A stretch of DNA of 52,824 nucleotides, from positions 1 to 52,824 of the IMG/VR virus record IMGVR_UViG_3300003937_000084; one strand, 5' to 3'. The DNA is from a virus. Position 1 is the first letter of the stretch, and the number at the start of each line of letters is the position of its first letter. Below the pieces are notes generated by a model. It saw nothing but the letters and a program-made list of their open reading frames with translations, was not told the origin of the DNA and made no database searches. Below are positions 12,487 through 32,921 of this stretch, in pieces. A program made the position numbers and the translations under genes.

Positions 12487-12699
12487 CTACCAATCTGGAT
12501 ATTCCCATTTACCAGAAACTTTTTTTACTCTTTTTTTACAGCATTCTTTGCATTCGTATGAATATGATGAAGCAACTGCACCTCTATCTTTTCTTGTTCG
12601 ATAAAACCCATCAACTAAATTTTTAATTTTTCCACATGTTCTACATTTTCTATCCTGTAAAAGAAGGTGTCCTAGTTTAATTTGGCCGTCTAGATCCAT
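12487..12699 (-). CDS. Small zinc-ribbon protein downstream of purM
   Basis: A 70-aa basic protein with two CxxC knuckles, Cys19/Cys22 (CRTCGK) and Cys50/Cys53 (CKECCKK), separated by about 27 residues including FYRTRKDRG. The spacing and the basic loop fit a zinc ribbon of the kind found at the N-terminus of phage HNH or endonuclease VII-like proteins, but no nuclease domain follows. It could bind nucleic acid as a stand-alone ribbon, or be a remnant of a larger nuclease. The first 23 bases overlap the purM 3' end in another frame, so the two were probably acquired or are expressed together. Confidence 0.72.
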   Translation of the reverse strand: MDLDGQIKLGHLLLQDRKCRTCGKIKNLVDGFYRTRKDRGAVASSYSYECKECCKKRVKKVSGKWEYPDW

Positions 12700-13627
12700 T
12701 ATTTACTTCTCCAATAATCCATGATCTCATACCAAATGGGGTATCAGCAATCAAAGTTTGAGTTTGTTCTGCTACTTCTTGCGGTACAACCAAACAGAAT
12801 CCAATGCCAAGATTGAATACATTACGCATCTCTTTCTCAGTAATGTTACCTGCTTCCTGGATTTTGTTGAAGAGTTCTGGTCTCTCCCAAGCAGAATAGT
12901 CAACGCCAACTGTGAGACCCATTGGAAGGCATCGTGGGAGGTTCTCAGGCAGTCCTCCACCTGTGATGTGTGCCATGCCTAAGATAGGAACTTCATCCAA
13001 CAGGTATTGAATAAGACGAGCATAGATGGTGGTAGGTCTCAGCAACTCTGGCATCTCTTTATAGTAGATGTAATTTCTCCACAGCATATCATTGATCAGT
13101 GTGTATCCATTACTATGAATACCATTGCTCTCAATACCAATAACTACATCGCCAGGTCGAATGTTACTACCATCAACAATGTCATTCTTCTCTACAATAC
13201 CAGTACAGAAACCAGCAAGGTCATAGTCAGTTGCTCTATAATGTTCGGCAGTTTCTCCACCTAACAATTCCATTCCTGCCATTGTACATCCAACATTGAT
13301 GCCATACACAATGTCACTCACATTAGCATCTAATGTTTTGGCAGAGACATAATCTAGAAAATATAATGGTTTAGCGCCAGAACATATAACGTCATTGACG
13401 CACATAGCAACGAGATCCTGACCAATAGTGGAGTAATCACCAGCAATCCTACAGATGTTAATTTTAGTTCCGACACCATCGGCACCAGATATTAATACAG
13501 GTTTCTCATATCCTGATGGGATCTCCATCATTCCACTGAACCCACCAATACTAGGTGCCAATACTTTTAGATACTCTACAAAGGAACGTCCTTTGATAAT
13601 ATCAACGCCAGAAGTTTTGTAGTCCAT
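12677..13627 (-). CDS. purM: Phosphoribosylformylglycinamidine cyclo-ligase (AIR synthase) PurM
   Basis: A 316-aa enzyme converting FGAM plus ATP to AIR in purine biosynthesis. It matches bacterial PurM along its length: KTSGVDIIKG at the start, GADGVGTK (48-55), DLVAMCVND (71-79), SGAKPLYFLDY, GGETAE (123-128), YDLAGFCTGIVEK, GIHSNGYTLI, HITGGGLPENLPR and FNLGIGF. The glycine-rich and acidic ATP-site residues are present, so it should be active. It is somewhat shorter than E. coli PurM (345 aa), mostly at the C-terminus. It is an auxiliary metabolic gene, presumably raising nucleotide supply for phage DNA synthesis. The ATG overlaps the stop of the small gene before it (TAATG). Confidence 0.96.
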   Translation of the reverse strand: MDYKTSGVDIIKGRSFVEYLKVLAPSIGGFSGMMEIPSGYEKPVLISGADGVGTKINICRIAGDYSTIGQDLVAMCVNDVICSGAKPLYFLDYVSAKTLDANVSDIVYGINVGCTMAGMELLGGETAEHYRATDYDLAGFCTGIVEKNDIVDGSNIRPGDVVIGIESNGIHSNGYTLINDMLWRNYIYYKEMPELLRPTTIYARLIQYLLDEVPILGMAHITGGGLPENLPRCLPMGLTVGVDYSAWERPELFNKIQEAGNITEKEMRNVFNLGIGFCLVVPQEVAEQTQTLIADTPFGMRSWIIGEVNNGSRRPN

Positions 13628-17476: not shown

Positions 17477-19657
17477 TTATGCTTCCAATGCAGTAAAAAC
17501 TACTTTAAAAGTTGTCTCTGATGAGAATGTTGGATGACCAATTAATCTAAGTGCTCCACCACTAATATCAGATGAGAATGTAGCAACTCCAATTGGTTGA
17601 TTTATTATGCCATACTCAGCCTGATATGTATTAGTTCCATCGTGAATAATATTAATAGTTGACATATTATAATTACTTCCTCTTGTAACCTGAACCTGAT
17701 AGTTTGCAGATCTATATGTAGATGCACTTATAGACATAACCACAGCAGCACTGGTACTGGTTGTAGTAAGAATACCTGATTGTATATCTCCAGCAATTAA
17801 TTCAAGATTAGTAGCCGATACTGGTGCAAATGTAAACTCTTGAGCAGAAGCATCATACCTTAAAAATCTACCATCACCAACATTACTAGCATCAACATCA
17901 GTTAAATCTACAAGTTTGCTTTGTCCACTAATTGATGTGCTTGCAATACCAACCCATTTCGCTCCATTGTAAATGAGTAATTGATTAGTTCCTGTGGTTT
18001 GGTCAAAGGTAACATCATCCAGATCCTTGATGAATCCAGCACCGCCACCGCCAATGGTAGCAATTTGTTGCTGAATTCGGTTTATGAATAGTTTATAGTG
18101 ATTTTGTAATTGATCAATAGTTACAAAATTTTGATCCAGAGGAGTTAATGGATCTGCAGAATTTTTTGTTGATGCATCTCCTGGCAGAGTTGGATTATCC
18201 TCTTTTAATAATGCTTTCTCATTAAACTCTGTGAGAATTTTTTCAATATAAACTACTTTTTCTGATAAAGATTTATTCTTTTCCTCAATAGAATTAATTT
18301 GAAGTCTCTCTATAACATCTTTTACTTCTTCTTTAATACTCTCAATATTTTCATTTTGTTTTTTAATATGCTTCTCATTAACAACTAAATTAAGTTCCAA
18401 GTCCTTAATTTGATTGGACATATTTTCTTCAAATTCCCCTACTTCATTTTTGAGAATGTCATAGTATTTTGTTGTACTAATGTCTAGAACATTTTGCAGT
18501 TCTCTTACATCTTCTGCGATAGTTTCTTCAAAGAACGAAAATTTCTTAGAGAACTTATCAAGTTCTCCAGAGTATTCCTCTAATTTTTTGTTTTCATGAA
18601 TTTCTCTATTTTTAAAATCTTTGTAGAGAGAAGTATATACATTAGATATCTCTCCTATTTTTTGTTTAGAATCATCAATAGTAGATTGCAATTCCTGAAC
18701 CTTCGATTCAACTAATGAATCAATATCAGAGGTTTTTTCTGTAACGTCATTGGACAGAAGTTCAATTTTTTCTTTGATAAACTCAACTTCTTCTAATACA
18801 TTTTTTTCTAATTGCTTTACTTCCTTTTCGGATTTAAGTTTAGTTTCTACTAATAGATTGCTATACTTTGGAATTTCATTTTCGGTGAATTCTTTCACCA
18901 TTAAGTTTAATTTATTAATCGCCTCATCGTAAGCAGAAACTCTCTGCTCAGTCTTTAGTTCAGTTTCTGCAAAAAGTTTTTTGTACTTTGGAAACTCTTC
19001 ATTAACAAGATTACTTACAGTCTCATTGACATCTTTTGTTGTCCGCTTTAAGTCTTTCTTTAAGTCTGATACTATATTTTTATTAACTGTCTTAACATCT
19101 GCTAAGGCACTGTTTACTTCTCTATTGACATCTTCTCTAATACCATCAAGGTCTTCTTCTACTAGACCCTTAAAATTTGAAAATCTAGTATCAAATCTAA
19201 TTTCGGATTCTGATACTAATTTCTTATAACTTGGAATATCAACATCTACAAAATTTTCTACAGTCTGGGAAAGGTTTGTAAAATCTTCCTTTATTTTATC
19301 AATGGTGTCACCATTAACACTCTTTATTCTTCCTTCAATTTTTTTGATGGATTCTTCAACAAAAAGAAGATGAGCAACCATTGCTTCATCTAGATCATCT
19401 TTATTGATCAGTCCTCTAATATCTTCTTTTACTTCTGATATTTCTTTGGAAATACTTTCAACTCGATCAACATTTTCCTTAAAGTTCTCAACCGTAAGCG
19501 AAAAGTCTGATATAGATTGTATATGATTTAAGTTAGTTTTAAAAGCACTAAAGGCCTCAGATACTGTTTCAATTTTTTCCAAAGAAACATTATCCTTGAT
19601 CTTGTCAAAGTCGTTCTTATTCTTACCAAAAAAATCTGCAGGCTTCTTTAATGCCAC
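17477..19657 (-). CDS. Long coiled-coil fibre-like virion protein
   Basis: A 726-aa protein with two halves. Residues about 20-460 are dominated by heptad-like Lys/Glu/Leu/Ile patterns and predict a long parallel coiled coil. Within it a repeat with core (D/E)(I/F)PxYxxLxxExxx occurs at about 137-160, 218-240 and 258-280. Residues about 540-726 are beta-rich, beginning with a GGGGAGF hinge and LDDVTFDQTTGTNQLLIYNGAKWVGI, a head-domain motif common in cyanophage fibres. This is the organisation of a trimeric fibre or whisker, recalling T4 fibritin in general form but with no clear identity. The start is GTG at 19657 with GGAG upstream. It lies between gp16 and the DUF192 protein. Confidence 0.85.
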   Translation of the reverse strand: MALKKPADFFGKNKNDFDKIKDNVSLEKIETVSEAFSAFKTNLNHIQSISDFSLTVENFKENVDRVESISKEISEVKEDIRGLINKDDLDEAMVAHLLFVEESIKKIEGRIKSVNGDTIDKIKEDFTNLSQTVENFVDVDIPSYKKLVSESEIRFDTRFSNFKGLVEEDLDGIREDVNREVNSALADVKTVNKNIVSDLKKDLKRTTKDVNETVSNLVNEEFPKYKKLFAETELKTEQRVSAYDEAINKLNLMVKEFTENEIPKYSNLLVETKLKSEKEVKQLEKNVLEEVEFIKEKIELLSNDVTEKTSDIDSLVESKVQELQSTIDDSKQKIGEISNVYTSLYKDFKNREIHENKKLEEYSGELDKFSKKFSFFEETIAEDVRELQNVLDISTTKYYDILKNEVGEFEENMSNQIKDLELNLVVNEKHIKKQNENIESIKEEVKDVIERLQINSIEEKNKSLSEKVVYIEKILTEFNEKALLKEDNPTLPGDASTKNSADPLTPLDQNFVTIDQLQNHYKLFINRIQQQIATIGGGGAGFIKDLDDVTFDQTTGTNQLLIYNGAKWVGIASTSISGQSKLVDLTDVDASNVGDGRFLRYDASAQEFTFAPVSATNLELIAGDIQSGILTTTSTSAAVVMSISASTYRSANYQVQVTRGSNYNMSTINIIHDGTNTYQAEYGIINQPIGVATFSSDISGGALRLIGHPTFSSETTFKVVFTALEA

Positions 19658-19679: not shown

Positions 19680-20102
19680 TTATTTATTCTCTTCTTTTGC
19701 CCCCTGTTTTAACATCTTCGCAAGTTCTGCAGTAGATCCAACGAAGAGTGCATTATTAACAGTAGAAGGCCCGCGAGATTGTTTTTCTTCTTCAACATCC
19801 TTCAGTTTTTTCTGAAGATCCATTAACTTATCTGTGGCATCAGCAACGTTTTTAATTAATTGACCTGCAACTTCATATGCTCTAGGCATTTCACTTTCTT
19901 GTGCAAGTTCTAAAATACCATTGATTGCTTCTTGTCCCTTTTCAATTATACTGTAAAGATTACCCCGTGTATAATTATAGTCTTTTTTAATATCATCTGA
20001 AGTTTCTTTCACTTTTTCAATTTTAGCACTAACAACTTCAGATTGCACAATGTCTCCTTTAACATTGAATTCATCATTTAAAGTATCAAATTTGCTTGTC
20101 AT
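19680..20102 (-). CDS. 16: Terminase small subunit gp16
   Basis: A 140-aa helical protein. The central part (KKDYNYTRGNLYSIIEKGQEAINGILELAQESEMPRAYEVAGQLI) matches the T4 gp16 core, where a DDYGVVRRNM start leads into two long antiparallel helices. The end has the family pattern VNNALFVGSTAELAKMLKQ, similar to T4's NATVFMGSPTELMD. It forms oligomeric rings that recognise DNA and regulate the gp17 ATPase and nuclease. The ATG overlaps the gp15 stop (ATGA). In T4, genes 16 and 17 adjoin; here two large structural genes lie between them. Confidence 0.9.
   Translation of the reverse strand: MTSKFDTLNDEFNVKGDIVQSEVVSAKIEKVKETSDDIKKDYNYTRGNLYSIIEKGQEAINGILELAQESEMPRAYEVAGQLIKNVADATDKLMDLQKKLKDVEEEKQSRGPSTVNNALFVGSTAELAKMLKQGAKEENK
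19681..19688 (-). promoter_or_regulatory. Late promoter octamer (AATAAATA) for the coiled-coil protein
   Basis: AATAAATA on the minus strand, 24 bp upstream of the GTG at 19657, overlapping the end of gp16. Confidence 0.58.
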
Positions 20103-21100
20103 GTTATTGTTCCACTAAATCCAAAATCATCACCCTCTTCAATTAATGCATTATCAGCAGCATTGATAACATGTATTTCTGCCCCTCTAAGATGTTCAGT
20201 TGCAGTTGTCTTATCTTGTGCTCGCAAGACAGTGAGTTTATTGCCAGTGATTGATTTAATGAATAGTTCTTCATCATCAATAGCAATATAGGATTTGGCA
20301 GTCAGACCACTTATACTCTCAACTTCAATTATTTTATTAGTTTTGGTAATATCCACAGATACGGTAGTGGCAGCATCCCCAGTATAACTTTTAATTGCCC
20401 TTGGAACAGAAGAGTAACTGAGTTCTCTTGTTGCATTCGATACATCAGTTCCAGTAAGATAACTGACGGTAGATCTCTTGATAATATCCTTGGTTGCAGA
20501 GGTAGCGGGACCAAACAGATATGTTTTTGCAGTAAATCTTAAGGTATAAAGAAGAACTCTTCTTGTTGTAAAATCTCCATCATAATCATCTTGCATGGTG
20601 ATATTCTCAAGAATTACTGGAATATCACGTTTCTCCTGTATTGAATCAACTAATTCAACGGTTAAATTATATGCTGGTTGAAAGTATGGTAAAATTTGTT
20701 CCACAATTTGTAGAGCATCATCATTTAGTTTTGTCATAATACTCAGTTCAAATTGCATATTATATGGAACTGGCATATATATTTTTTTAGACTCAGATCC
20801 ATCATCTGGGTCTTTTACTGTATATTGTTGTGTTGTTGTTACTTTTCTTGCTGAATCATAGGTCATTCCAGTAAACTCAAATGCCATCCTTGGTAATGTA
20901 ATTGCAGTCGCTTTATTGAGATCTGACTGCTGTTCAATTCTTGCAAGAAACTTTTGAGTTGGTCCATACGACAAAGGAACCCTGATAGTGTTGATCACAT
21001 TATCGGAGGAATTAGTTTGTTTGATGGTTAATGAATTAAAAAGAGTACCGAAAGATACAATGGTTCTCCTCAAAATTTCGTTATAAAAATATTCAAACAT
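20099..21100 (-). CDS. 15: Tail sheath terminator gp15 with an added C-terminal module
   Basis: A 333-aa protein (T4 gp15 is 272 aa). The N-terminal 230 residues match the family: MFEYFYNEILRRTIVSFGTLFNSL, VPLSYGPTQKFLARIEQQ, LPRMAFEF and the PVPYNMQFELSIMTKLNDDALQIVEQILPYF strand-helix. It caps the sheath and tube hexamer and joins the tail to the neck. From about residue 245 a further ~75-residue unit follows, with IEVESISGLTAKSYIAIDDEELFIKSI and later RAQDKTTATEHLRGAEI. The same unit occurs in the gp7-like protein and the 2525-aa protein. The gene starts a unit with CATAAATA 41 bp upstream. Confidence 0.93.
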   Translation of the reverse strand: MFEYFYNEILRRTIVSFGTLFNSLTIKQTNSSDNVINTIRVPLSYGPTQKFLARIEQQSDLNKATAITLPRMAFEFTGMTYDSARKVTTTQQYTVKDPDDGSESKKIYMPVPYNMQFELSIMTKLNDDALQIVEQILPYFQPAYNLTVELVDSIQEKRDIPVILENITMQDDYDGDFTTRRVLLYTLRFTAKTYLFGPATSATKDIIKRSTVSYLTGTDVSNATRELSYSSVPRAIKSYTGDAATTVSVDITKTNKIIEVESISGLTAKSYIAIDDEELFIKSITGNKLTVLRAQDKTTATEHLRGAEIHVINAADNALIEEGDDFGFSGTIT

Positions 21101-21140: not shown

Positions 21141-21148
21141 TATTTATG
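21141..21148 (-). promoter_or_regulatory. Late promoter octamer (CATAAATA) for gp15-gp16
   Basis: CATAAATA on the minus strand, 41 bp upstream of the gp15 ATG, overlapping the end of gp14. Confidence 0.52.
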
Positions 21149-23702
21149 GCATTCCAAATGGGTTTTGCTCACTAAAGTCTATAATAGAATCTGCTTCAAT
21201 TTCTATATTAATATTATCTGCAAAACCATCGTCAGTTGGATTGATATTAAGACTTCTAAGTTCGTGTGAAGCACCTGACGTAGATCCTGTAATAGTTTCT
21301 CCTGGAATAAATTCTCCCGTTACAGACGCAACTTCAAGGACACTATCATCAGAATTCCAAACTCTAACTGTTGCAGTAGAAGCACTTACTGATCCAGTAA
21401 CAGTTTCATTAAACACAAAGTTTCCAGACCCAGATCCTTCAGCAGCTGAAATAGTTATTTCTGGTTCGATTATATATCCATAACCAGCATCAAGAATATT
21501 TACATTTGATATAGTTCCAGCGGTGCTTACTGTTGCAATTCCCGTAGCAGTAGTAATACCAGAAATCTGCTCAATATAATTTTTCTCAGATACTTCGTTA
21601 GAAATAGTTATCGTGGGAGCTGACAAATATCCACCACCACCAAAAGTAACTGCGATTCCAGTTACAATACCGCAGTTTTCTCTACCAAATTCAAATACAG
21701 AGGTTGCAATGCCAACATTTGTGGCAGACTCTGACATAGTTAGAGAATTAGATCCAATGGATTGTACAAAGATATCTGCAGGTATGAAGTTGTATGGTTT
21801 GTTATATCCAACACTCATTCTCACTCTATCTCCTACAACAATATTAGTTGTAGTAATTCCAGTGATAACACTAGATCCTATACCAACTGTTCCTCCAGTC
21901 TTGACTGATGTAGATCTAATCGTTGCAATTCCAAGTGCTCTAAATTGCTCATCAGCACCTCCAGATCCTGCTATAGTGACTGTTGGAGTAGTTAAGTATC
22001 CAAATCCACTATTACCTATGCTAATAGTGTTAACAGTGCCTGCAACAGATACTGTTACTGTAGCAGTTGCTTGTACTGGAGATGGATTTCCCGAGAAAGA
22101 AATACTAGGTGCTACTGTATATCCAAGACCAATAGTTGCTCCAGTACCAACACACCATGGATCGGTAGTGCTATTAAATCCAACTGATGTAATAATACCG
22201 GTTATTGGATGAATCGTTGCAATACCAACGGCAACTTGAGTCGGGGCATCCATGACTCCAGACGTGGAGATTGCAACCGTAGGTGCAGTTGTATATGCTC
22301 TACCAGTAGTACTAAATGCAACAGAACTTGGATTTACAGAAGAACCAGCAATACCTATTGTTGCAGATGCAAAACTAAATCCTGGATGAGCAATGAATAC
22401 TGATGGAGCACTTGTATAGAATTTACCTCCAGTAGTAATTGCAAGAGTTTCTACTGTACCTCCAGTTTGTGATAATTGATCTAAAGTTGCAGTTGCTTGT
22501 GCAGCGTTTCCTGTTCCTGTAGGTAGTGAAAACACAACCAAAGGTGCTGTTTTGTAGAATACTCCACCAGTTGTTCCTCCTGGAAACAGAAATTCTGATG
22601 CACCAATACTTACAGTTGCAGAAACAACACTAACACCACCACCAACTACAGGAGAATCTAGGGTTGCTGTTGCATTTGCACCGACATGTTTTGGTCCAGA
22701 TAATGTAACTGTTGGTGCAGTTGTATAACCAGATCCTCCTGAAGTTAGTGTAACTATTCCAACACCACCTGTTGTGGAAATACCTACTGTTGCACCAGCA
22801 CCAGCACCACTATTTGAAATAAATCTAACACCTGGTGGGCTTGTATATCCACTACCAGAATTTAAAATTTGAACTTGTTGAACTGATCTTGCTCCTGGAT
22901 TAGCACTTTGATTGCAGACATTAATTCCTCCAATCATAATAGCAGTTGCGATACCAGTAACTCCATTTGTTGGAGCAGACGATATTGCTACTCTTGGTGG
23001 GGAAAGGTATCCACCACCTCTATTGGTCAATCTAATAAATCTAATAGCACCATTTAAAATACCAGCAGTTCCAGTTGCAGTTGAGGCTGCTCCAACCAAA
23101 GTAAGTCTTTGGGTAGATCCAATAATTGTGGATATTCCATCTTCATTTAATCCATCAGATTCTCCACCAGTTAAAATATCATCAATATCTTCTATACCAG
23201 TATCAATGACTTCATCACCATACCTAAAGAGTTCACATCTCAACTCATAAACATAATTTTTTTGTAGTTGATAAAATGGTTTTTCGTGCTCAACAAATTT
23301 AATTTCAAATAAACGATCCCCTAGAGGAAAATAAATTAAGTCTCCTTCTTTTGGTCTCGTGGATAATTTTACATTTTCCTCATTCTTTATTAAAGGAGAA
23401 ATATAATTCTCAAATCTCTCCTTTGAAATAACTAAATTTAATTCCTGCTCTTGTTGGATACCAAATTTTGATAGTATTGTAGTATTGTCATTATATCCTT
23501 CAAAATTGTCTATATACGCTTCTATTGGATATGCGTCATCAAATCTAGATTGTATTACTTCTCTGATAATTGTATTTTCAGTTAAATATTTTCTTGGAAG
23601 ATAATGTACTTCTACACCATACATCCTCAACTGTTCATTGATAAGATCTTGAATTAAATTTTGCTCAGATCTGGCCCCTTGTTGGAAATATGGATTAAGC
23701 AT
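21144..23702 (-). CDS. 14: Neck protein gp14 with a large beta-repeat insert
   Basis: An 852-aa protein whose ends match gp14 (T4 gp14 is about 256 aa). Residues 1-180 hold MLNPYFQQGARSEQNLIQDLINEQLRMYGVEVHYLPRKYL, a KFGIQQEQELNLVISKERFENY segment and GDLIYFPLGDRLFEIKFVEHEKPFYQL. The last ~25 residues (IEIEADSIIDFSEQNPFG) also look like a gp14 end. Between them, about 195-825, lies a repeat array of Gly, Ala, Thr, Val and Ile with at least nine GxGYxxxP(x)V-type units such as GSGYTSPPGV, GSGYTTAPTV, GFGYLTTPTV and GGGYLSAPTI. gp14 with gp13 forms the neck that seals the filled head. The insert probably decorates the neck surface. Confidence 0.92.
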   Translation of the reverse strand: MLNPYFQQGARSEQNLIQDLINEQLRMYGVEVHYLPRKYLTENTIIREVIQSRFDDAYPIEAYIDNFEGYNDNTTILSKFGIQQEQELNLVISKERFENYISPLIKNEENVKLSTRPKEGDLIYFPLGDRLFEIKFVEHEKPFYQLQKNYVYELRCELFRYGDEVIDTGIEDIDDILTGGESDGLNEDGISTIIGSTQRLTLVGAASTATGTAGILNGAIRFIRLTNRGGGYLSPPRVAISSAPTNGVTGIATAIMIGGINVCNQSANPGARSVQQVQILNSGSGYTSPPGVRFISNSGAGAGATVGISTTGGVGIVTLTSGGSGYTTAPTVTLSGPKHVGANATATLDSPVVGGGVSVVSATVSIGASEFLFPGGTTGGVFYKTAPLVVFSLPTGTGNAAQATATLDQLSQTGGTVETLAITTGGKFYTSAPSVFIAHPGFSFASATIGIAGSSVNPSSVAFSTTGRAYTTAPTVAISTSGVMDAPTQVAVGIATIHPITGIITSVGFNSTTDPWCVGTGATIGLGYTVAPSISFSGNPSPVQATATVTVSVAGTVNTISIGNSGFGYLTTPTVTIAGSGGADEQFRALGIATIRSTSVKTGGTVGIGSSVITGITTTNIVVGDRVRMSVGYNKPYNFIPADIFVQSIGSNSLTMSESATNVGIATSVFEFGRENCGIVTGIAVTFGGGGYLSAPTITISNEVSEKNYIEQISGITTATGIATVSTAGTISNVNILDAGYGYIIEPEITISAAEGSGSGNFVFNETVTGSVSASTATVRVWNSDDSVLEVASVTGEFIPGETITGSTSGASHELRSLNINPTDDGFADNINIEIEADSIIDFSEQNPFGMP
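21230..23120 (-). repeat. Degenerate tandem beta repeats inside gp14
   Basis: The insert of gp14 contains roughly 9-10 divergent units of about 40-70 residues, each with an A-T-V strand, a G(G/S)GY turn, a (S/T)xP step and a V-x-I/F strand. The DNA copies are diverged but share cca-cca and gta-tat-cca type words, so the antisense strand stays open over long stretches. Confidence 0.75.
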
Positions 23703-23706
23703 ATGA

Positions 23707-24552
23707 TTAACCGATCATGTCCAATGGTGGAAGTTCATAAGTGTTGGACATAACCTCTCTGATTGCATCTAACTCCTTTTGAGCATCATCATATATTTGT
23801 CTACCATTTAATTCTATACCACCTGGAAGTTTTACTCCTTGGAACTTCAGGAGGTTTTGTCCCCACTGTCTTTTGATAAGTTGAGTTACATATCTCTTAA
23901 GAAATGAGTCATTCCAAACTCTACTAAAATTATTTGGGTCTAAAAGTCTATAACAATCAAGGATAAGATAATCATCTTTAGATACTTCTCCCCAATCAAC
24001 ATCTAAGTAAAGTCTATCCTGTCTTTGATTAAATCTTATCTGCTTCTCTGTATTTAATGCAAAGTCCATATCTTCAAGATATCTTTTTGTCATTGCATAT
24101 GATAATATTTCAGTAGAACTAAAATTATAAATGTCATTCAAGAACATTTGATATTTTACACTGAACATATTATTAGTCACTGTTTGTGACCCGTCATATC
24201 TAAATATTTTGTTTATTCCAATAACTTGTGGAGGAACTTGTACATAATTACTATTTTCCTCAAAAGAAAAAGTTACAGATGAACCATCTATAGTTGAAGA
24301 TGCGGTTGTAGTAACTAGTCCTACAGGATTACTCCCTCCTCTTCCTCGTCCTCTATCAACATCTCCTTGCGTAATTTTATACTTTAAATATGTTTGAACA
24401 ACACCATCAAAATGTCTTTCATGAAAGTATTGCAAAGCATCATCTATTAGATCATCAATTTGCTCATCAGCAACGTTGATTTCTAAAACTGGTGCTCCCA
24501 GTTGCCTTTTACAGTAATTTATTAGGTCCGACCTACTTGCTGGTTGAGCCAT
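23707..24552 (-). CDS. 13: Neck protein gp13
   Basis: A 281-aa protein (T4 gp13 is 309 aa). SRSDLINYCKRQLGAPVLEINVADEQIDDLIDDALQYFHERHFDGV at the start, IFRYDG, FSVKYQMFLNDIYNF, DMDFALNTEKQIRFNQRQDRLYLDVDW and the C-terminal VTQLIKRQWGQNLLKFQGVKLPGGIELNGRQIYDDA are family hallmarks. It binds the portal after packaging and, with gp14, makes the head-completion complex to which the tail attaches. It is only 4 bp from gp14, so the two are co-translated. A CCTAAATA element lies 23 bp upstream. Confidence 0.95.
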   Translation of the reverse strand: MAQPASRSDLINYCKRQLGAPVLEINVADEQIDDLIDDALQYFHERHFDGVVQTYLKYKITQGDVDRGRGRGGSNPVGLVTTTASSTIDGSSVTFSFEENSNYVQVPPQVIGINKIFRYDGSQTVTNNMFSVKYQMFLNDIYNFSSTEILSYAMTKRYLEDMDFALNTEKQIRFNQRQDRLYLDVDWGEVSKDDYLILDCYRLLDPNNFSRVWNDSFLKRYVTQLIKRQWGQNLLKFQGVKLPGGIELNGRQIYDDAQKELDAIREVMSNTYELPPLDMIG

Positions 24553-25136: not shown

Positions 25137-25344
25137 TTATCAACTCCTTTAATAGTAACTTGATTTCTGTAATGTCATCTTTAAGGTTAGCAACTTCTTC
25201 CTCAATAGTCTGTACCTTTTGATGCTCTTTATTTTTCACTTTACGTCTCTCAACGTATTTTTCATGATCTAAAGAGTTTAGATTCAATATGGCACCTGTA
25301 TGTGGATCCCTTACGAGATCCACATAATCTTTTACTTTATGCAT
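25123..25344 (-). CDS. Small coiled-coil hypothetical protein
   Basis: A 73-aa protein. The first 30 residues contain DLVRDPHTGAILNLNSLDHEKYVERRK, and the rest is a coiled-coil heptad (VQTIEEEVANLKDDITEIKLLLKEL). The ATG overlaps the stop of the 2525-aa gene (TAATG), so it is coupled to it. Small coiled-coil proteins with this N-terminal DxxTGAI motif accompany tail genes in many T4-like marine phages, but I cannot name a function. A chaperone or connector for the preceding protein is possible. Confidence 0.72.
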   Translation of the reverse strand: MHKVKDYVDLVRDPHTGAILNLNSLDHEKYVERRKVKNKEHQKVQTIEEEVANLKDDITEIKLLLKELINGSK

Positions 25345-28300
25345 TATGCTAGGGCAATAACTCTTAGGTTTCGGGCTCTTGGTACATATGTTTGATTTGT
25401 ACCCGTCAACAGAATTTTAATTCTGTAGACTTTAAATGACGGCAATTCGTCAATGCTAAAAGTATGTTCTTTAAATTCGATAGAACTACTATCAAAACCA
25501 TATGTAGGAGTTTTAGATACAAATGAATCCGATTCGCCGTTATTGTTTGCAATATCAATAATTTGACCTTTAGAATCAAGGTTCTTATATCCGGGGAAAG
25601 GAATAAAGATTGGATCAAATCCGTCTTTATTACTGATAGCATATAATACTCTAGCATCACAGAAATCATTAACGTGAGCATCAAAGATAACTTTTAAAGA
25701 AGTTGCTGCATTTTCCAGTCTAATTTCTTTAGAAATATACTGACAAGCAGTTGGATCTGTCAAAATTCCTTTAACTCTAGAATCATTTGCAATATCCGTA
25801 ATTTGACTATCAATTCTGTTAGAAGTGAGAATAGTACTAACTCTTTGACCATCAATTACTGGAGAAATATGGGAATCTGTAGTTACCATATTAACTCTCA
25901 TTTGCATAGATTTAGCACCTTCAATGTTTGTTAACTTAGCATCTTCATTAACCTTAGAACAAATTAATCTTGTACTGCTAAGATAATTTGGCGTATTTGG
26001 AACAATTGGTTCAAACCCAGCATCAAGATAAGCAATCTCGTTGCCACTTAAACTTTGACCAGTTACTGTTCTAACTTCCGCGCTAATAGAAGTTCCTCTT
26101 GTAGTAACATTTTGAATGATTGGAGTGATAATTTCAAATGGCATGTTTTGAGTTGCCTTAACGTTTTGTCCTCCAGTAGATCCAGTAATTCCCATATAAA
26201 GTTTAGGGAATCCAAGTGCATCTTCACTTCTATCATCATTATCAACGTTAAATTTCTCAGACATATCAAGTTTGATGTTATAGGAATCGAAGGTAATCGA
26301 ACTTCCTATAGAAACGTCGCTTAAGGTATGAGTTTTATTAACTCTATGGAGGCAAACTCCACCAAGTTCATATTTGTAAACAGGAGTTCCGGTTGAGTAA
26401 GTAATAGGATTACTTCCTCTAGAAATACTTCCACCAATAGTGTTTCCATCTACACTACTGTATTCTATGACTTCTTCTCCAATCAAGAGGTATCCTCTAT
26501 TCGTAGATCCAACACTGACATTTTCAAAGTTAGAGAATGCTGTTGCACTTTCAACAGAAAGACCTGATGTAGAATTGGAAGAATATGCACTAGTCAATTT
26601 GGTTGGTTTAACATCTGGAAGAACTCCAGAAATAATTACTCTATTATCTGTAAAGTACATTCCATGATTTTGATGGTTAACCTTAATGTGAAGTCCATCA
26701 GTAACTTCATTGATTGAAGCAATTTGAACATTTCCACCAGGTGCAGCGGGTAAATTGTTATTCAAAGTTTGAGCAACACCCACACTATTAAAGTAATTCA
26801 ACTGTGGACCACCAACAGTAAAATCTCCCTGAACATTATCTAGAATCAGTTCACTAGTTTTACCAATTCCAGAAACAGTAAGTCTTACATTTTTACCAAC
26901 AGATCCAGCACCAATAGTATTAATTCCGACAACATCACCAGTTTGATATCCATTACCACCAGATCCAGTGATGGTTGCGGAAGTAACTTGTCCATTGGTA
27001 ACAGCAACAGTTGCTTGAGCACCTCTACCACTTCCTGACAATGTTACTAGATTGACTCCAGTAAATGTATGAGATCCATCAGTTGGTGTTAAACCAATAC
27101 CTGCATTAGAGATTGCCAATGCTGTTCTTGGAATAGTTCCAGCAACACCAATTAAAGTACCTGTAGCATTTGTTTTGTTAACATGACTTGCTCCCTGGAA
27201 GAAAGTATTACCAAGTTGATATCCAGAATCTTGTACAGTAGTTCCAAGTCCAACTCTAATAGTTCTGGAAGAAACTTCAAGACAATCAGGTTGAAGAACA
27301 GGTATTTGTCTGTTACCTTCAGTTAACTTTGGACTATAGAAATCAATAGTACCAGACTCAAGGAAATCTGCCCTATACATAACAAATTTAAGATCTTCCC
27401 ACTGACTTGCTTCCCATGTAGAAGCATTCTGAGATTTGAATAGTGATCCTAGATATGGTTGGTTTGAGATAAACGCATCACTTAGAAGATCATTCTCACC
27501 AATTCTAGAAATATAAACACTATACTTGGTAGAGTTTGACGCTAAAGCAATTGCATACTCTGATCCTCCTTCCAAGAACACAGGAGCTTTAAATTCAATT
27601 GTTGTTGCCACTGATCCATCAGGCGAAATTTCAATATCTGCAGGATCAAGAACAATCTCAGAGAATGGAAGAATTTTCTGTGTTGGGAAACCATTTTGCA
27701 TGGTTCTAAGTTGGAAGACACATGGAATATCCATATCATCTTTTGTTCTAAAGTAAATATCGCACTTAGTGACAAATACTCCAGATTCTTCCTCAACTAA
27801 GAATGATTGTGCAAGTGGGTCATACCAACCAACTGTATTCTCTGTGCTTGTCTGACCTACAACCTGAGATCCAACAACCTGAGTTCCAAGATTCGTATTT
27901 ACATTTCTTTCTTGGAATTCTTGTCTTCTTTCAATTCTAGCATTTCTAACTGAGATGATATTTTCCTGAACTGTTTCAAGTGTTCCCGAGGCAGCAAATG
28001 CTTCTTCGGCAATTGTTGTTGCAACATCTGGATCATTATCCTCATCATTAGTAAGAGTGAAAGTTTTAGTTCCTGTTTCAAATCTTGGGTGATTGACTGA
28101 GTTGGGGTTTGGAATGAAGAAACTACCTATTAGATTTGCAGAAAGATCTGATACAAGTCTATGTCCTGTTATGACTGCTTCTGCGCCACTTGTGGTGCCT
28201 TTTAGAATCATTTCCTCAGCAATACGACCAGAATATTCACCTTGAGCTTCATTTGATAATGAGAATGTATCAACATTCAAGATCGTTGATGTTGCAGAAT

Positions 28301-31300
28301 ATACTGCAGGTAGAGATGTTCCGTTATAAGGATCTTCTCTAAACACTTGATCGGGTGCGTTATATTCACCTTCTCTATGATTTGATTGAGCAACTCTAAA
28401 GGTAATTTTTGCTTCTTCTCCAATCAATTGTCTTGTGACAGGTCCAAGTCCTGGTCTAGACATCCTACCAATAACAGTTTCGCCAACCTGGAATGATCCA
28501 GATGTCATTAAAATTTCAAGGAGTTTTGGAACACAATACTTGTCAACTTGTTCTCCATCGAAAAATGCATGCATTCTCGTAAGAGGTTTCATTTTCTTAG
28601 AAACAAATTCAACATTTCTTGATCTCATAAACGGAATGAGATCTCTACTTACAGTTCTGTCTCCTACAGATTCACGATCAAATTGTTCATGAACAAATAA
28701 CTGAGAACCCGTCCTTGATTGTTGTTCAGTTCTAATTGTCTCTCTAACAGTGTCCTCAATGGTTGTTGTGGTTGTATCTTCGACCCATCTTGCAGTTCCA
28801 CTACCACCATTGATCCAACCACCAACGCCTCTTCTACCACCGGTAGAGACTGTTGTCCTTCTTGTGGTTGTATCATTAAATTCAAATCCAGTCCAATTAG
28901 TCTCCCAAGAATTCCAAACAACAGGAGCAAATCCAGTTTGAGGATCAAGACCTTCTGTTTGTTCAAGAAGTGCAACTTGAGAAGCATAATCACCTTCAAC
29001 ATCAATGACCTTAGGTTCAATCCTTACAGTGTCTACCCAAGTATCAGATGCAGGGTTCAATTCCATTGTTCCCTGCCAAAAACTAATTAAGAATGGCGTT
29101 ACACTTTCTGTTCTAGTTGCAAATGGTTGATTAATATACTCAACTTCACTGTAATCCAGTGTGATTACATCATTTGCTTTTCTTATATTATTTCCCTCAA
29201 CAACTGCAAAATTTAGGTCTGCTGTTGGATCTACATTTACAACTGGTCCAAAAATAAGATCAATAGAGTTTGTATAATGTCTGGGTCTTATTTCTTTGTG
29301 AGCCCTATCAATACTATTCTTGATTGGTGCGCTTGTTTCTTGAGTATTAAATCCAGTAAAATTATCAACAAAGAAACCAGATTTAAATCTATTCAATCCC
29401 TCGCCATCTGGAACAAACAGATTTGCTGTATTTGCTTCAAGTAAAGATAAAGATGTATAATATTCAAGACTTGAGATTCTATTCTCAAGCTTCTTAATAT
29501 CTTTCATCTGATATCTCTTATGCTCTAAGAATCTTAAAGACGCCTGACTGACTTTATAGAGATATGGTGGAAGAGTAACTGTAGCAACTTCCAAAGCATT
29601 GTCAATTGGATTTGGAGGTTGTGGAATTTCTGATGGTGTTCCATATAAAATTTGGAACTTACCTTTTTTATCTAAGAAAACTCTATCAATTCTTCCAAGA
29701 TAATGACTAAATGTTGTTAAGATTGATTCATCAGATGCTAAAGCATTTGATGCTGAATTTCCATCAGCATTAAATGATCTTCCAAAAAATTCAAGAGGAG
29801 ATCTTGCCCCTTCAACAACCGTATATTCAGAAACTCTTGGTCTAATGTCAAGTATATCAGTATTAGCATCACCATTTATACCTTTAATTTCTGTACTATA
29901 ATCAAAGTTTTTGTAAGATTCTACACTAGTAAGGTCTCCATTATCAGTTGAATCAAAAGATGCACTCTTATAATAAATTTTCAGTTTCTTAGCAGGAGCA
30001 GATTTATTTTCTTTTCTTATAATTCTTCCCTGATCATAGAATGTATCCTCTTGACCAGTTCTAAATTTATAGTTTTCTGAAATATCAAAACTATCAGAGG
30101 TAATAACGGATACAGTTGCTTGAATTGCCGTCTCCTGGAAAATTACAGTTTCTCCTTCAACAAATTTACTATCATTTTTGGATATATATGAAATTTGTGC
30201 AGATGTAAGGGTTTCTGCAATAATTCCATTTGCTCCAGACGTTTGTCCTATAAAAGATTCTCCAACTGTTAGTTCCCCAGTTGTAGTTGATGTACTATTA
30301 ATATTAATTAAAGAAATTTTTGGTGCTGTAGCATTGTTAGTATCAGAAGATTCAAAAACACCATGAACATCAATGACATCTGGAACATTCAGAGAGATAG
30401 TAGCATCTTGAACTCTGGTTCCATATGGATAATTGCCCCCACCATAGACCAATCCATCATTTAAGGTTGTTGATCCAATACCAGAAGATGCACTATTTGA
30501 TTTATCCACAATAATAGATTTGACTCTATTTTTAATTTTAATTTTTGATGTGGGTTTAACCTTCTTCAAGGAAACAATTAAAGAAGCACCCGTATCATTA
30601 GACCCAAGACCAAAAATGTTTAGTGCTGTCCCCCCACTAGCAATAGTGAGTTTATCGGCAGACAATGCTTCAGTTGTACCATCTGATCTAATTAGAGCAT
30701 ATCTTTCTTCATCAAATGGCAAGAATGTTTCATTTGGACCTGCAGATATATTAGAAGAGAGTTGTCCACTAGCAATATCAACACTCAGAACTTTTCTTAT
30801 AGTTAAACTTGCATTAGTAAAATCTACAGATTCGATATCAGTTCTTGGTAATCTAGTATAAAGAGTGCTATCCGAGGAAGGATCAAGTTTTGTAGTTACT
30901 AATCTAAAGTCATTAACGTCAACTGATCTAGTTGGAAGAGATCCTCTAACAATTCCGGGAACAGGAGTAACTGAAGCAATTTGAATAGAATCAGTATCAA
31001 CACTTGTAACTCTTCCCATAGTGGGATCAGTGATGGTTGCTGATGGGTTTGTATATTCTACAAGATTTCCAACCTTAAATAATCCTGGAAGAACGTCATT
31101 AGTGCTTTTTACCGTGCTGATTCCACCAGAAGCTTTAGTAATTGTTGCTACTCCAACCGCGATTATTGGAGTCTGAACAACATCAGCAGCAAAAGTGGAG
31201 ACACCGGTCAATCTGTTATTACTTCCAAAAACAGATTTTACATCTGATAATGTATAAGATGTTACTGCTGTAGCAATTCTACCATCATTAATACCATTAA

Positions 31301-32921
31301 ATACTAAAGGTTCATTGGGGATAAAATCTCCCTCAACTTCATAAACTGATACTGCATTTGAGTTTGAAATTGCATCTTTAAGGAATGCAGTTGCACCACT
31401 CCTACTACCTTGTATAAAAGTAGGAACAGAGAGACTTGTTGCTTGATTGAGAACTAAATCTACGGTTGTTTGAACGTCAAACAACGAAAGGTTCCACTCA
31501 TTAATGGTATCATTAGATGTGTTGTAAGATCCAGATTCTAATCTATAATCATATACTCTAGCAACACCAATCTCTCTACCTGCTGGTGCAGGAGTACCAC
31601 CAGTTCCATCTGTTGCAAGACCAACTCTTTGATCCCTTAAACTAAGAATATATGTATTACCAACTCCAACATCAGGTGATCTCCAAGTTCTATTAACTCT
31701 TAAAGTTGGACCAGTATTATAAATTATTGATTGATCTTCAATAGTTGCAGTTGTTCTTGGCTTAGGAACATCAATAAAAGTTACACTACTAATATCAATA
31801 TCATAACCTCGCACAAATGCTCTACCTGGAGAGAATTTGTATAGCATGAGGTCATCAGATGGAGTTTGTCCTCCAAACGTTAATTGACCTGCGCTATATA
31901 TTCCTCTATTTCCAACTCCATTGTTAAGCGATTCATGTACAGATAAATCAAATGCTTTTACATAATAATCACCAGATTCTGCATATGTTCTACTTGCAAG
32001 AATATCTGTCCAATCTTTATATCCTACTCCACCACCAAGATCTCCTCTTTTGGTTTGAGATTTGATATTTCCCGATTCAATAATAGATAATTCAACAAAT
32101 TGATCATCATTGTAGTCAGTTAATGGTTTTTTAAATAAACTTAACGAAATCTTAAGTCTATCTGCACCTGGTGCCGAGTAGTTATTAAATCCTTGAGAAT
32201 TATCATTTAATGCCTCATCTTCATCAGCATTTACAATTTCTTCGCTTACAAACAGACCAATTCTATAATTAGGATTATTTCCATATTGATCAAGAATTAA
32301 AGTTTCTGTATTAACATTAACAAAATGCCCATGAACGAAATACACTCCTTCTTGAATTTGGAAAGCAGATCCAGTAGCAGCTGCCTCGTCGGGAATTGTT
32401 GTTGCAAAAGGAGCTCCAATAGCAATACTAGTATTCCCAAGAAGACCAGAAGAAATAATCTGATTGCACGTTAAATTTTCGCCATCAGAGAAAGTTTGAG
32501 TTGCATTATTTGCGGTGCTTGAATTTAAATAGTTAATGTATAGAGTAAGATTTCCTCTCTCAGAATCTTCTGGAAGAAGGACTTTATCTACAACAGCACT
32601 TACTCCAGAAGATTCTCCCGTAATTTTAGTTCCAACTAATTGTTCAGCATATGCTGCTACAGGAACTCCTAGATAAGTATTTTGTAATTGAACACAGTAA
32701 TATAATTGAGTATATCCTGTATTGCCAGGAATTACTTTTGCACCTTCTTTGAAAAAATGCTGACCAAATTTTTCAATCTGATTTTGAAGAATCGATTGTA
32801 AAGTAGTTAATTCTCTTGCCTGAACTGGATATCCAGGTTTAAATAACACCTTATGGTAGTCATCTACCGGATCAAAGTCATCAAAATATGGTGCTACATT
32901 AAGGTTCGTTTGCTGTGGCAT
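25344..32921 (-). CDS. Giant baseplate/tail protein (2525 aa), DUF4815-like N-terminus, in place of gp9-gp12
   Basis: A 2525-aa single reading frame. The N-terminus (VAPYFDDFDPVDDYHKVLFKPGYPVQARELTTLQSILQNQIEKFGQHFFKEGAKVIPG) resembles DUF4815-type tail proteins. The middle has long helices (KRYQMKDIKKLENRISSLEYYTSLSLLEANTANLF) before a Gly/Thr/Arg-rich part. A later part (VGWYDPLAQSFLV, CDIYFRTKDD, GFPTQKILPFSEI, FKAPVFLEGGSEYAI) is a conserved tail domain. Near the C-terminus are a GRGAQATV beta repeat and a GYLLIGEEVIEY module shared with gp7 and gp15. It occupies the place of T4 genes 9-12 after gp8, so it may supply gp10-like wedge and fibre functions; identity to gp10 is not proven. Confidence 0.85.
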   Translation of the reverse strand: MPQQTNLNVAPYFDDFDPVDDYHKVLFKPGYPVQARELTTLQSILQNQIEKFGQHFFKEGAKVIPGNTGYTQLYYCVQLQNTYLGVPVAAYAEQLVGTKITGESSGVSAVVDKVLLPEDSERGNLTLYINYLNSSTANNATQTFSDGENLTCNQIISSGLLGNTSIAIGAPFATTIPDEAAATGSAFQIQEGVYFVHGHFVNVNTETLILDQYGNNPNYRIGLFVSEEIVNADEDEALNDNSQGFNNYSAPGADRLKISLSLFKKPLTDYNDDQFVELSIIESGNIKSQTKRGDLGGGVGYKDWTDILASRTYAESGDYYVKAFDLSVHESLNNGVGNRGIYSAGQLTFGGQTPSDDLMLYKFSPGRAFVRGYDIDISSVTFIDVPKPRTTATIEDQSIIYNTGPTLRVNRTWRSPDVGVGNTYILSLRDQRVGLATDGTGGTPAPAGREIGVARVYDYRLESGSYNTSNDTINEWNLSLFDVQTTVDLVLNQATSLSVPTFIQGSRSGATAFLKDAISNSNAVSVYEVEGDFIPNEPLVFNGINDGRIATAVTSYTLSDVKSVFGSNNRLTGVSTFAADVVQTPIIAVGVATITKASGGISTVKSTNDVLPGLFKVGNLVEYTNPSATITDPTMGRVTSVDTDSIQIASVTPVPGIVRGSLPTRSVDVNDFRLVTTKLDPSSDSTLYTRLPRTDIESVDFTNASLTIRKVLSVDIASGQLSSNISAGPNETFLPFDEERYALIRSDGTTEALSADKLTIASGGTALNIFGLGSNDTGASLIVSLKKVKPTSKIKIKNRVKSIIVDKSNSASSGIGSTTLNDGLVYGGGNYPYGTRVQDATISLNVPDVIDVHGVFESSDTNNATAPKISLININSTSTTTGELTVGESFIGQTSGANGIIAETLTSAQISYISKNDSKFVEGETVIFQETAIQATVSVITSDSFDISENYKFRTGQEDTFYDQGRIIRKENKSAPAKKLKIYYKSASFDSTDNGDLTSVESYKNFDYSTEIKGINGDANTDILDIRPRVSEYTVVEGARSPLEFFGRSFNADGNSASNALASDESILTTFSHYLGRIDRVFLDKKGKFQILYGTPSEIPQPPNPIDNALEVATVTLPPYLYKVSQASLRFLEHKRYQMKDIKKLENRISSLEYYTSLSLLEANTANLFVPDGEGLNRFKSGFFVDNFTGFNTQETSAPIKNSIDRAHKEIRPRHYTNSIDLIFGPVVNVDPTADLNFAVVEGNNIRKANDVITLDYSEVEYINQPFATRTESVTPFLISFWQGTMELNPASDTWVDTVRIEPKVIDVEGDYASQVALLEQTEGLDPQTGFAPVVWNSWETNWTGFEFNDTTTRRTTVSTGGRRGVGGWINGGSGTARWVEDTTTTTIEDTVRETIRTEQQSRTGSQLFVHEQFDRESVGDRTVSRDLIPFMRSRNVEFVSKKMKPLTRMHAFFDGEQVDKYCVPKLLEILMTSGSFQVGETVIGRMSRPGLGPVTRQLIGEEAKITFRVAQSNHREGEYNAPDQVFREDPYNGTSLPAVYSATSTILNVDTFSLSNEAQGEYSGRIAEEMILKGTTSGAEAVITGHRLVSDLSANLIGSFFIPNPNSVNHPRFETGTKTFTLTNDEDNDPDVATTIAEEAFAASGTLETVQENIISVRNARIERRQEFQERNVNTNLGTQVVGSQVVGQTSTENTVGWYDPLAQSFLVEEESGVFVTKCDIYFRTKDDMDIPCVFQLRTMQNGFPTQKILPFSEIVLDPADIEISPDGSVATTIEFKAPVFLEGGSEYAIALASNSTKYSVYISRIGENDLLSDAFISNQPYLGSLFKSQNASTWEASQWEDLKFVMYRADFLESGTIDFYSPKLTEGNRQIPVLQPDCLEVSSRTIRVGLGTTVQDSGYQLGNTFFQGASHVNKTNATGTLIGVAGTIPRTALAISNAGIGLTPTDGSHTFTGVNLVTLSGSGRGAQATVAVTNGQVTSATITGSGGNGYQTGDVVGINTIGAGSVGKNVRLTVSGIGKTSELILDNVQGDFTVGGPQLNYFNSVGVAQTLNNNLPAAPGGNVQIASINEVTDGLHIKVNHQNHGMYFTDNRVIISGVLPDVKPTKLTSAYSSNSTSGLSVESATAFSNFENVSVGSTNRGYLLIGEEVIEYSSVDGNTIGGSISRGSNPITYSTGTPVYKYELGGVCLHRVNKTHTLSDVSIGSSITFDSYNIKLDMSEKFNVDNDDRSEDALGFPKLYMGITGSTGGQNVKATQNMPFEIITPIIQNVTTRGTSISAEVRTVTGQSLSGNEIAYLDAGFEPIVPNTPNYLSSTRLICSKVNEDAKLTNIEGAKSMQMRVNMVTTDSHISPVIDGQRVSTILTSNRIDSQITDIANDSRVKGILTDPTACQYISKEIRLENAATSLKVIFDAHVNDFCDARVLYAISNKDGFDPIFIPFPGYKNLDSKGQIIDIANNNGESDSFVSKTPTYGFDSSSIEFKEHTFSIDELPSFKVYRIKILLTGTNQTYVPRARNLRVIALA

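Follow-up and report, generated by a model that had tools for sequence, protein, structure and literature searches.

Neck protein gp14, by its sequence that of a marine T4-like cyanophage, is encoded in the 52,824-nucleotide stretch of viral DNA analysed here (the window), and an insert of GxGYxxxP repeats, which appears from sequence comparisons to be transferred between phage lineages by recombination, separates its conserved N-terminal and C-terminal parts. We propose, in what we regard as an evenly balanced judgement, that the insert is an exchangeable collar appendage, present in six copies per virion and most likely serving as an accessory glycan adhesin.

gp14 is divided by a repeat insert

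The 852-aa ORF (Table 1) has no internal stops. Its first 178 residues score 111.3 bits against the Pfam T4_neck-protein family (PF11649; cut-off 25), the protein matches PHROG 460 (head closure Hc2) at E 6e-139, and residues 2-170 match the solved T4 gp14. According to PHROG, gp13 lies upstream and gp15 and gp16 lie downstream, an order identical to that in S-SM2 and T4. Between the conserved ends, the motif [GST]x[GAFVR][FY]xxxP occurs 10 times (at residues 229, 283, 323, 380, 426, 467, 525, 566, 689 and 740), against a mean of 0.32 and a maximum of 2 in 200 shuffles, and every other window ORF tested holds three copies or fewer. An HMM of the unit, approximately G.v..ItitngGsGYttaPtVtIs.p.g.Ga.atat, recovers 10 units in gp14, each with an i-E of 1.4e-9 or better. 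The sequences behind this HMM come from relatives and include one identical to the window protein, so independent evidence comes from the shuffle test. The sequence-only reading had placed a large array of repeats between two conserved ends of gp14, which is borne out. It had also set the array at 21230-23120 (residues ~195-824). The degenerate repeats are indeed there, but the bounds are narrower: the array proper covers residues ~217-757, including a non-repeat island of ~90 residues (591-680), and residues 758-822 are free of repeats. Units are spaced 40-58 residues apart, except for one gap of 123 residues that holds the island.

Table 1. Features of gp14 and of its neck neighbours in the window
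Feature	Position	Strand	Basis
gp14 (neck protein / head closure Hc2), 852 aa, stop included	21144..23702	-	Pfam, PHROG
gp14 residues 1-178, conserved N-terminal stopper domain, homologous to solved T4 gp14	23169..23702	-	PF11649 E 7e-32; PDB 9mkb/9lu4 E 3e-26; VIA Z 9.4 to 9lu4
gp14 residues 179-206, linker and first strand, tentatively of a base beta module split by the insert	23085..23168	-	few VIA rows
gp14 residues 207-333, GxGYxxxP units 1-3 of the insert, common to short and long forms	22704..23084	-	motif, unit HMM
gp14 residues 334-590, GxGYxxxP units 4-8, main part of the long-form cassette, missing in short forms	21933..22703	-	motif, unit HMM, comparison with relatives
gp14 residues 591-680, non-repeat island, predicted small beta barrel	21663..21932	-	VIA Z 6-7.7
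gp14 residues 681-757, GxGYxxxP units 9-10	21432..21662	-	motif, unit HMM
gp14 residues 758-822, conserved base beta module (FxxGE..TG), without GxGY repeats	21237..21431	-	alignment to P-RSM6, S-CAM1
gp14 residues 823-852, C-terminal tail with DF.E.NPFG motif	21147..21236	-	motif in relatives
gp13 (head-tail adaptor), 281 aa, without T4 gp13 domain III (fibritin-binding)	23707..24552	-	PHROG, alignment
gp15 (tail sheath stabilizer), 333 aa, expected partner of the gp14 C-terminal region	20099..21100	-	Pfam, PHROG

The ends of the protein had been read as an ordinary gp14, which holds for the N-terminal domain (1-178); the ~25 residues assigned to the C-terminal end proved too few, as ~95 are conserved in cyanophages. 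The counterpart of residues 758-852 is residues 189-282 in P-RSM6 gp14 (39%, E 6e-20); S-CAM1 gp14 also aligns with this end (E 1e-17). Both of these proteins lack the array and carry the conserved end almost directly after the N-domain, an arrangement that is, judged by alignment, the empty site of insertion. Since the conserved end nearly abuts the N-domain in these array-less phages, the insert of the window protein comprises residues ~207-757, about 550 aa. Only the last ~25-30 residues (EADSIIDFSEQNPFG) resemble gp14s beyond cyanophages, for example that of Sinorhizobium phage phiN3 (weakly, E 0.002); the strict DF.E.NPFG motif is present in 280 of the 289 distinct relatives listed, and 8 of the remaining 9 have close variants of it. 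The strand before the insert may tentatively belong to the base module after it, on the strength of a few VIA rows, one of which (Z 8.2) pairs residues 192..824 with 88 uninterrupted residues of the solved phage protein 9f4a; eIF2gamma rows reach Z ~5.6. In S-RIM8 (L087:2426-3598) and S-CAM4 (L094:2480-3604), the GxGY units seem to split the base module elsewhere than in the P-SSM2/window type, which suggests a second insertion site.

In the AF2 model of gp14, most of the insert has a pLDDT of 70-88 and the N-domain and tail are poor. For the island, VIA gave matches to phage tail and Uba1 FCCH-type domains, at Z values that may reflect chance arrangements. A sequence search of the array against solved structures returned no match to E 10, and a fold search of the GxGY units gave nothing convincing; the model was searched whole, so a new fold is not proven thereby. 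In Pfam, the window gp14 matches the neck domain only, and no recognised carbohydrate-binding domain was found in its array. According to PHROG, the units resemble tail-fibre and baseplate protein families.

Independent contigs rule out an assembly chimera: one (L001) encodes an 852-aa gp14 with N-domain and cassette identical to those of the window, and three more (L097-L099) match the window cassette at 100%. No strong unit array was found outside gp14 elsewhere in the window. The window also has two giant structural ORFs on the minus strand, one of 2525 aa (25344-32921; PHROG 358, DUF4815) and one of 4372 aa (34519-47637) with a few weak GxGY-like stretches; exchange between the array and these ORFs was considered and rejected, since matches were limited to weak ones in the 4372-aa ORF (E ~3e-4 to 5e-4). 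Nor was the cassette found in other kinds of protein: all cassette ORFs with an available 5' end are gp14, in a search with exact 8-residue patterns that distant copies would escape. Among cellular sequences, a search limited to close relatives of units 1-3 gave a single locus (L400:4001-4396, 53% identical), on a contig of the Euryarchaeota MAG TMED129 that is possibly a misbinned phage contig. Two further minus-strand genes of the window may be recorded here: a phosphoribosylaminoimidazole synthetase gene (12677-13627; PHROG 1207), which lies inside the structural cluster and adjoins the tail sheath and large terminase genes, and a 726-aa ORF (17477-19657), located between the small terminase gene and the region of the large terminase, whose PHROG matches to tail fibres are weak.

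The insert varies in length and is exchanged

Comparison of gp14 lengths and mapping of the repeats, the check proposed with the sequence-only reading, gave a range of 217 to 952 aa among relatives and no gp14 of the same length with a single domain. Among the named phages, the shortest proteins are those of phiN3 (217 aa), T4 (256), HTVC008M (290), P-RSM6 (291) and S-CAM1 (292); these are followed by S-H9-2 (372), S-CAM4 (374), S-RIM8 (390), P-SSM2 (470), S-SM2 (481) and ACG-2014f (492), and by S-PRM1 (656), S-CAM9 (657), S-SSM7 (762) and Sf-FS3 (763). Lengths are discrete by clade among the 289 distinct IMG/VR gp14s listed, whose loci come from best-80 lists, so that class frequencies are not population frequencies. 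One shortened allele is among them (L390:547-1653, 369 aa), which stops within the array, lacks the base module and C-terminal tail and may be a truncation or an assembly error.

In pairs of close relatives, the DNA flanking the insert is collinear on either side, whereas that of the insert itself cannot be aligned; the breakpoints fall near residues 333 and 760. L010 and L011, for example, are 99.1% identical up to residue 333 and 94.6% identical beyond the swap. On a tree of N-domain DNA built by a quick method, a two-state label (long or short) requires 12 changes, and well-supported branches force 5 changes (short group) and 7 changes (long group). Distances in the N-domain and the cassette are weakly correlated (r 0.34), with extreme pairs in both directions, such as L007/L103 (0.34 in the N-domain, 0.05 in the cassette). 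Taking the sharp breakpoints, the changes on the tree and the weak correlation together, the cassette is apparently transferred between lineages by recombination. Across 39 long forms, pairwise identity averages 0.75 for the cassette and 0.74 for the N-domain.

In one clade the insert contains an additional domain. The Sf-FS3 insert has a LamG domain (31.2 bits, cut-off 27.6) and S-SSM7 has a match below the cut-off; in all, LamG was found in 5 of 34 diverse gp14 members, all of the S-SSM7/Sf-FS3 type, and the window gp14 gave no Laminin_G match at E 0.01. The model of the LamG segment is of low confidence (mean pLDDT 55; five models, 35 to 55). It matches jelly rolls of the concanavalin-like kind, among which carbohydrate-binding domains are frequent, with Z up to 13.4, although such a predicted fold is not proof of a common function.

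The neck around gp14

In T4, fibritin binds domain III of gp13 (PMC12270204, partial text). In an alignment, neither the window gp13 nor any of nine further non-T4 gp13s has a segment corresponding to this domain (T4 gp13 190-239). The fibritin PHROG (phrog_1056) was found in T4 only among 15 phage records, and thus in none of the 14 non-T4 records, a set outside which the window record falls; likewise, among three records that also did not include the window's, Fibritin_C was found in T4 and not in S-SM2 or S-SKS1. Earlier work had reported wac to be absent from cyanomyoviruses (PMC2984593, partial text). The array-less cyanophages P-RSM6 and S-CAM1 are also without detectable fibritin, so we regard its absence as context and not as proof of replacement. 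Moreover, phiN3 has neither the array nor domain III, so losing the dock and gaining the array do not go together. A link to the whiskered St Kilda cyanomyovirus mentioned in PMC2984593 (partial text) was considered and dropped, since S-SKS1, which has a gp14 of array-bearing size and no Fibritin_C, could not be equated with that isolate.

The residues of T4 gp14 past its core are flexible before tail attachment and afterwards touch gp15 (PMC12270204, partial text), and by analogy the C-terminal region of the window gp14 would contact gp15. The window gp15 has an extra beta-like module of ~65 residues (residues ~244-308; 20177-20371, minus strand) between its Pfam core and its conserved GDDFGF end, which gp15 of the P-SSM2 type (280 aa) lacks; within the window's clade, whether the module is present is unrelated to the length of the gp14 array. 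The named phages hinted that gp15 length tracks array length, but this was rejected, since gp15 is ~333 aa beside both short and long gp14s in the window's clade.

Discussion

We suggest a plausible arrangement of gp14 for phages without detectable T4-type whiskers. The N-domain would keep its usual role in the head-closure ring and the C-terminal part would dock on gp15, while the insert between them would form an elongated beta-repeat appendage projecting from the neck. T4 gp14 is a hexameric ring in the assembled neck (PMC12270204, partial text); by analogy, each virion would bear six appendages, which would stand on the outside of the gp14-gp15 joint and could be exchanged from phage to phage. 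Such a collar decoration would most likely be an accessory adhesin, binding host surface glycans weakly and multivalently. The discrete lengths, the cassette swapping, LamG in one clade and the lack of detected fibritin or dock in the phages tested are what an added decoration would show, and a role in binding is favoured by the LamG clade, the likeness of the units to fibre and baseplate families and the precedent of the lactococcal 936 phages, whose neck CBM was shown to bind host cells (PMC6669499, partial text). A decoration-like insert fits the suggestion of the sequence-only reading that the collar carries large structures, possibly for attachment. For its other suggestion, protection of the DNA channel, we found nothing that specifically favours it, since the T4 channel is gated by a loop of the gp14 N-domain (PMC12270204, partial text) and the insert follows this domain, within the part of the protein that contacts gp15.

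Several observations argue against an adhesin. A receptor-binding region would be expected to evolve fast, yet the cassette equals the N-domain in conservation; neither LamG nor a recognised carbohydrate-binding domain was found in the array of the window, and the LamG model is of low confidence. In addition, the neck-fibre CBM of cyanophage A-1(L) failed to bind its host (PMC10966104, partial text). The same conservation would suit an array that stabilises the gp13-gp14-gp15 joint mechanically, by wrapping or bracing it, and has no role in host binding, as would the contact of the counterpart region of T4 gp14 with gp15 in the virion (PMC12270204, partial text), the extra beta module in gp15 of the window's clade, and the beta-rich neck sheath proposed to give phage Milano its robustness (PMC10491603, partial text). 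However, arrays of 481 and 562 aa in very close relatives, and of ~850-950 aa in others, are hard to reconcile with a fitted brace, in which a LamG domain would also be unexpected, and gp15 length is independent of array length in the window's clade. We consider a purely structural collar unlikely.

It is quite improbable, in our view, that the array replaces T4 fibritin, keeping hold of tail fibres in their retracted state or sensing them and regulating how they are deployed, with no host binding. The restriction of detected fibritin to T4, the missing gp13 dock and the reported absence of wac (PMC2984593, partial text) would agree with such a substitution, but in P-RSM6 and S-CAM1 the function would then be without a carrier, dock loss and array gain are separated in phiN3, and no partner on the fibres was identified. 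Finally, nearly neutral padding, in which a loosely constrained site gathers repeat modules by recombination with little functional effect, is very improbable: units of this kind do occur in other families of virion proteins, the constraint on array length is loose among relatives and the base module appears to be interrupted at two points (S-RIM8/S-CAM4 type and P-SSM2/window type), but the ~370-aa cassette is intact and conserved across divergent phages, lengths are discrete and not continuous, and a single shortened allele is found among the gp14s listed.

The proposed collar appendage can be compared with known systems. T4 gp14 (9LU4-9LU7, 9MKB) shares with the window protein the homologous stopper domain, the gp13-gp14-gp15-gp16 order and a C-terminal region past the core, but it has 256 aa with neither base beta module nor repeats, and the collar fibres of T4 are fibritin on gp13. 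The gp14s of S-SM2, P-SSM2, S-CAM9, S-SSM7 and others, already annotated as neck protein or head closure Hc2, belong to the same family and have the N-domain, GxGY units, base module and DF.E.NPFG tail; they differ in their shorter or different inserts (470-763 aa in total) and, in the S-SSM7 clade, in LamG. The neck passage structure CBMs of the 936 phages, and "evolved" Dit and MTP-TpeX extensions, are likewise modules added to conserved neck or tail proteins (PMC6669499, partial text). They belong, however, to siphophages with unrelated proteins and a trimeric fibre with a CBM tip, and binding was assayed there, whereas the window is known from sequence. The neck fibres of T4 (fibritin) and A-1(L) (gp82-gp81-gp80) have the same location in the virion but are separate proteins docked on gp13 and gp5, respectively, whereas the gp14 appendage would be built in. 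The collar protein gp13 of the Agrobacterium phage Milano is also a beta-rich structure of the neck surface, with a decorating domain that resembles glycan-interacting proteins (PMC10491603, partial text); in contrast to the gp14 insert, it is a separate, pentadecameric, disulfide cross-linked sheath protein and not an insert in the head-closure ring.

Our literature search, which leaves out most subscription journals, found no title or abstract describing an insert in gp14, no modular, recombining decoration within the head-closure protein of T4-like cyanophages, and no virion structure or proteome of an array-bearing phage. The virion proteome of S-SZBM1 contains both neck proteins, one of 291 aa (PMC9146016, partial text); the gp14 of this phage is of the short size and is uninformative on the array.

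The gp14 residues ~207-757 and their counterparts in cultured phages such as S-SM2, S-CAM9 and S-SSM7 are a defined target for study. It is known that conserved structural proteins of phages can carry decorating domains, and neck proteins are usually viewed as conserved internal plumbing. More tentatively, and as a doubtful extension of the collar appendage proposed here, the head-closure ring of marine T4-like cyanophages without detectable fibritin whiskers might be a platform for six exchangeable, receptor-engaging collar arms, whose cassettes, traded between lineages, would form a second host-binding layer apart from the tail fibres. If our proposal is correct, abundant ocean phages would have a modular, swappable head-closure platform that provides a second layer of adsorption or stability.
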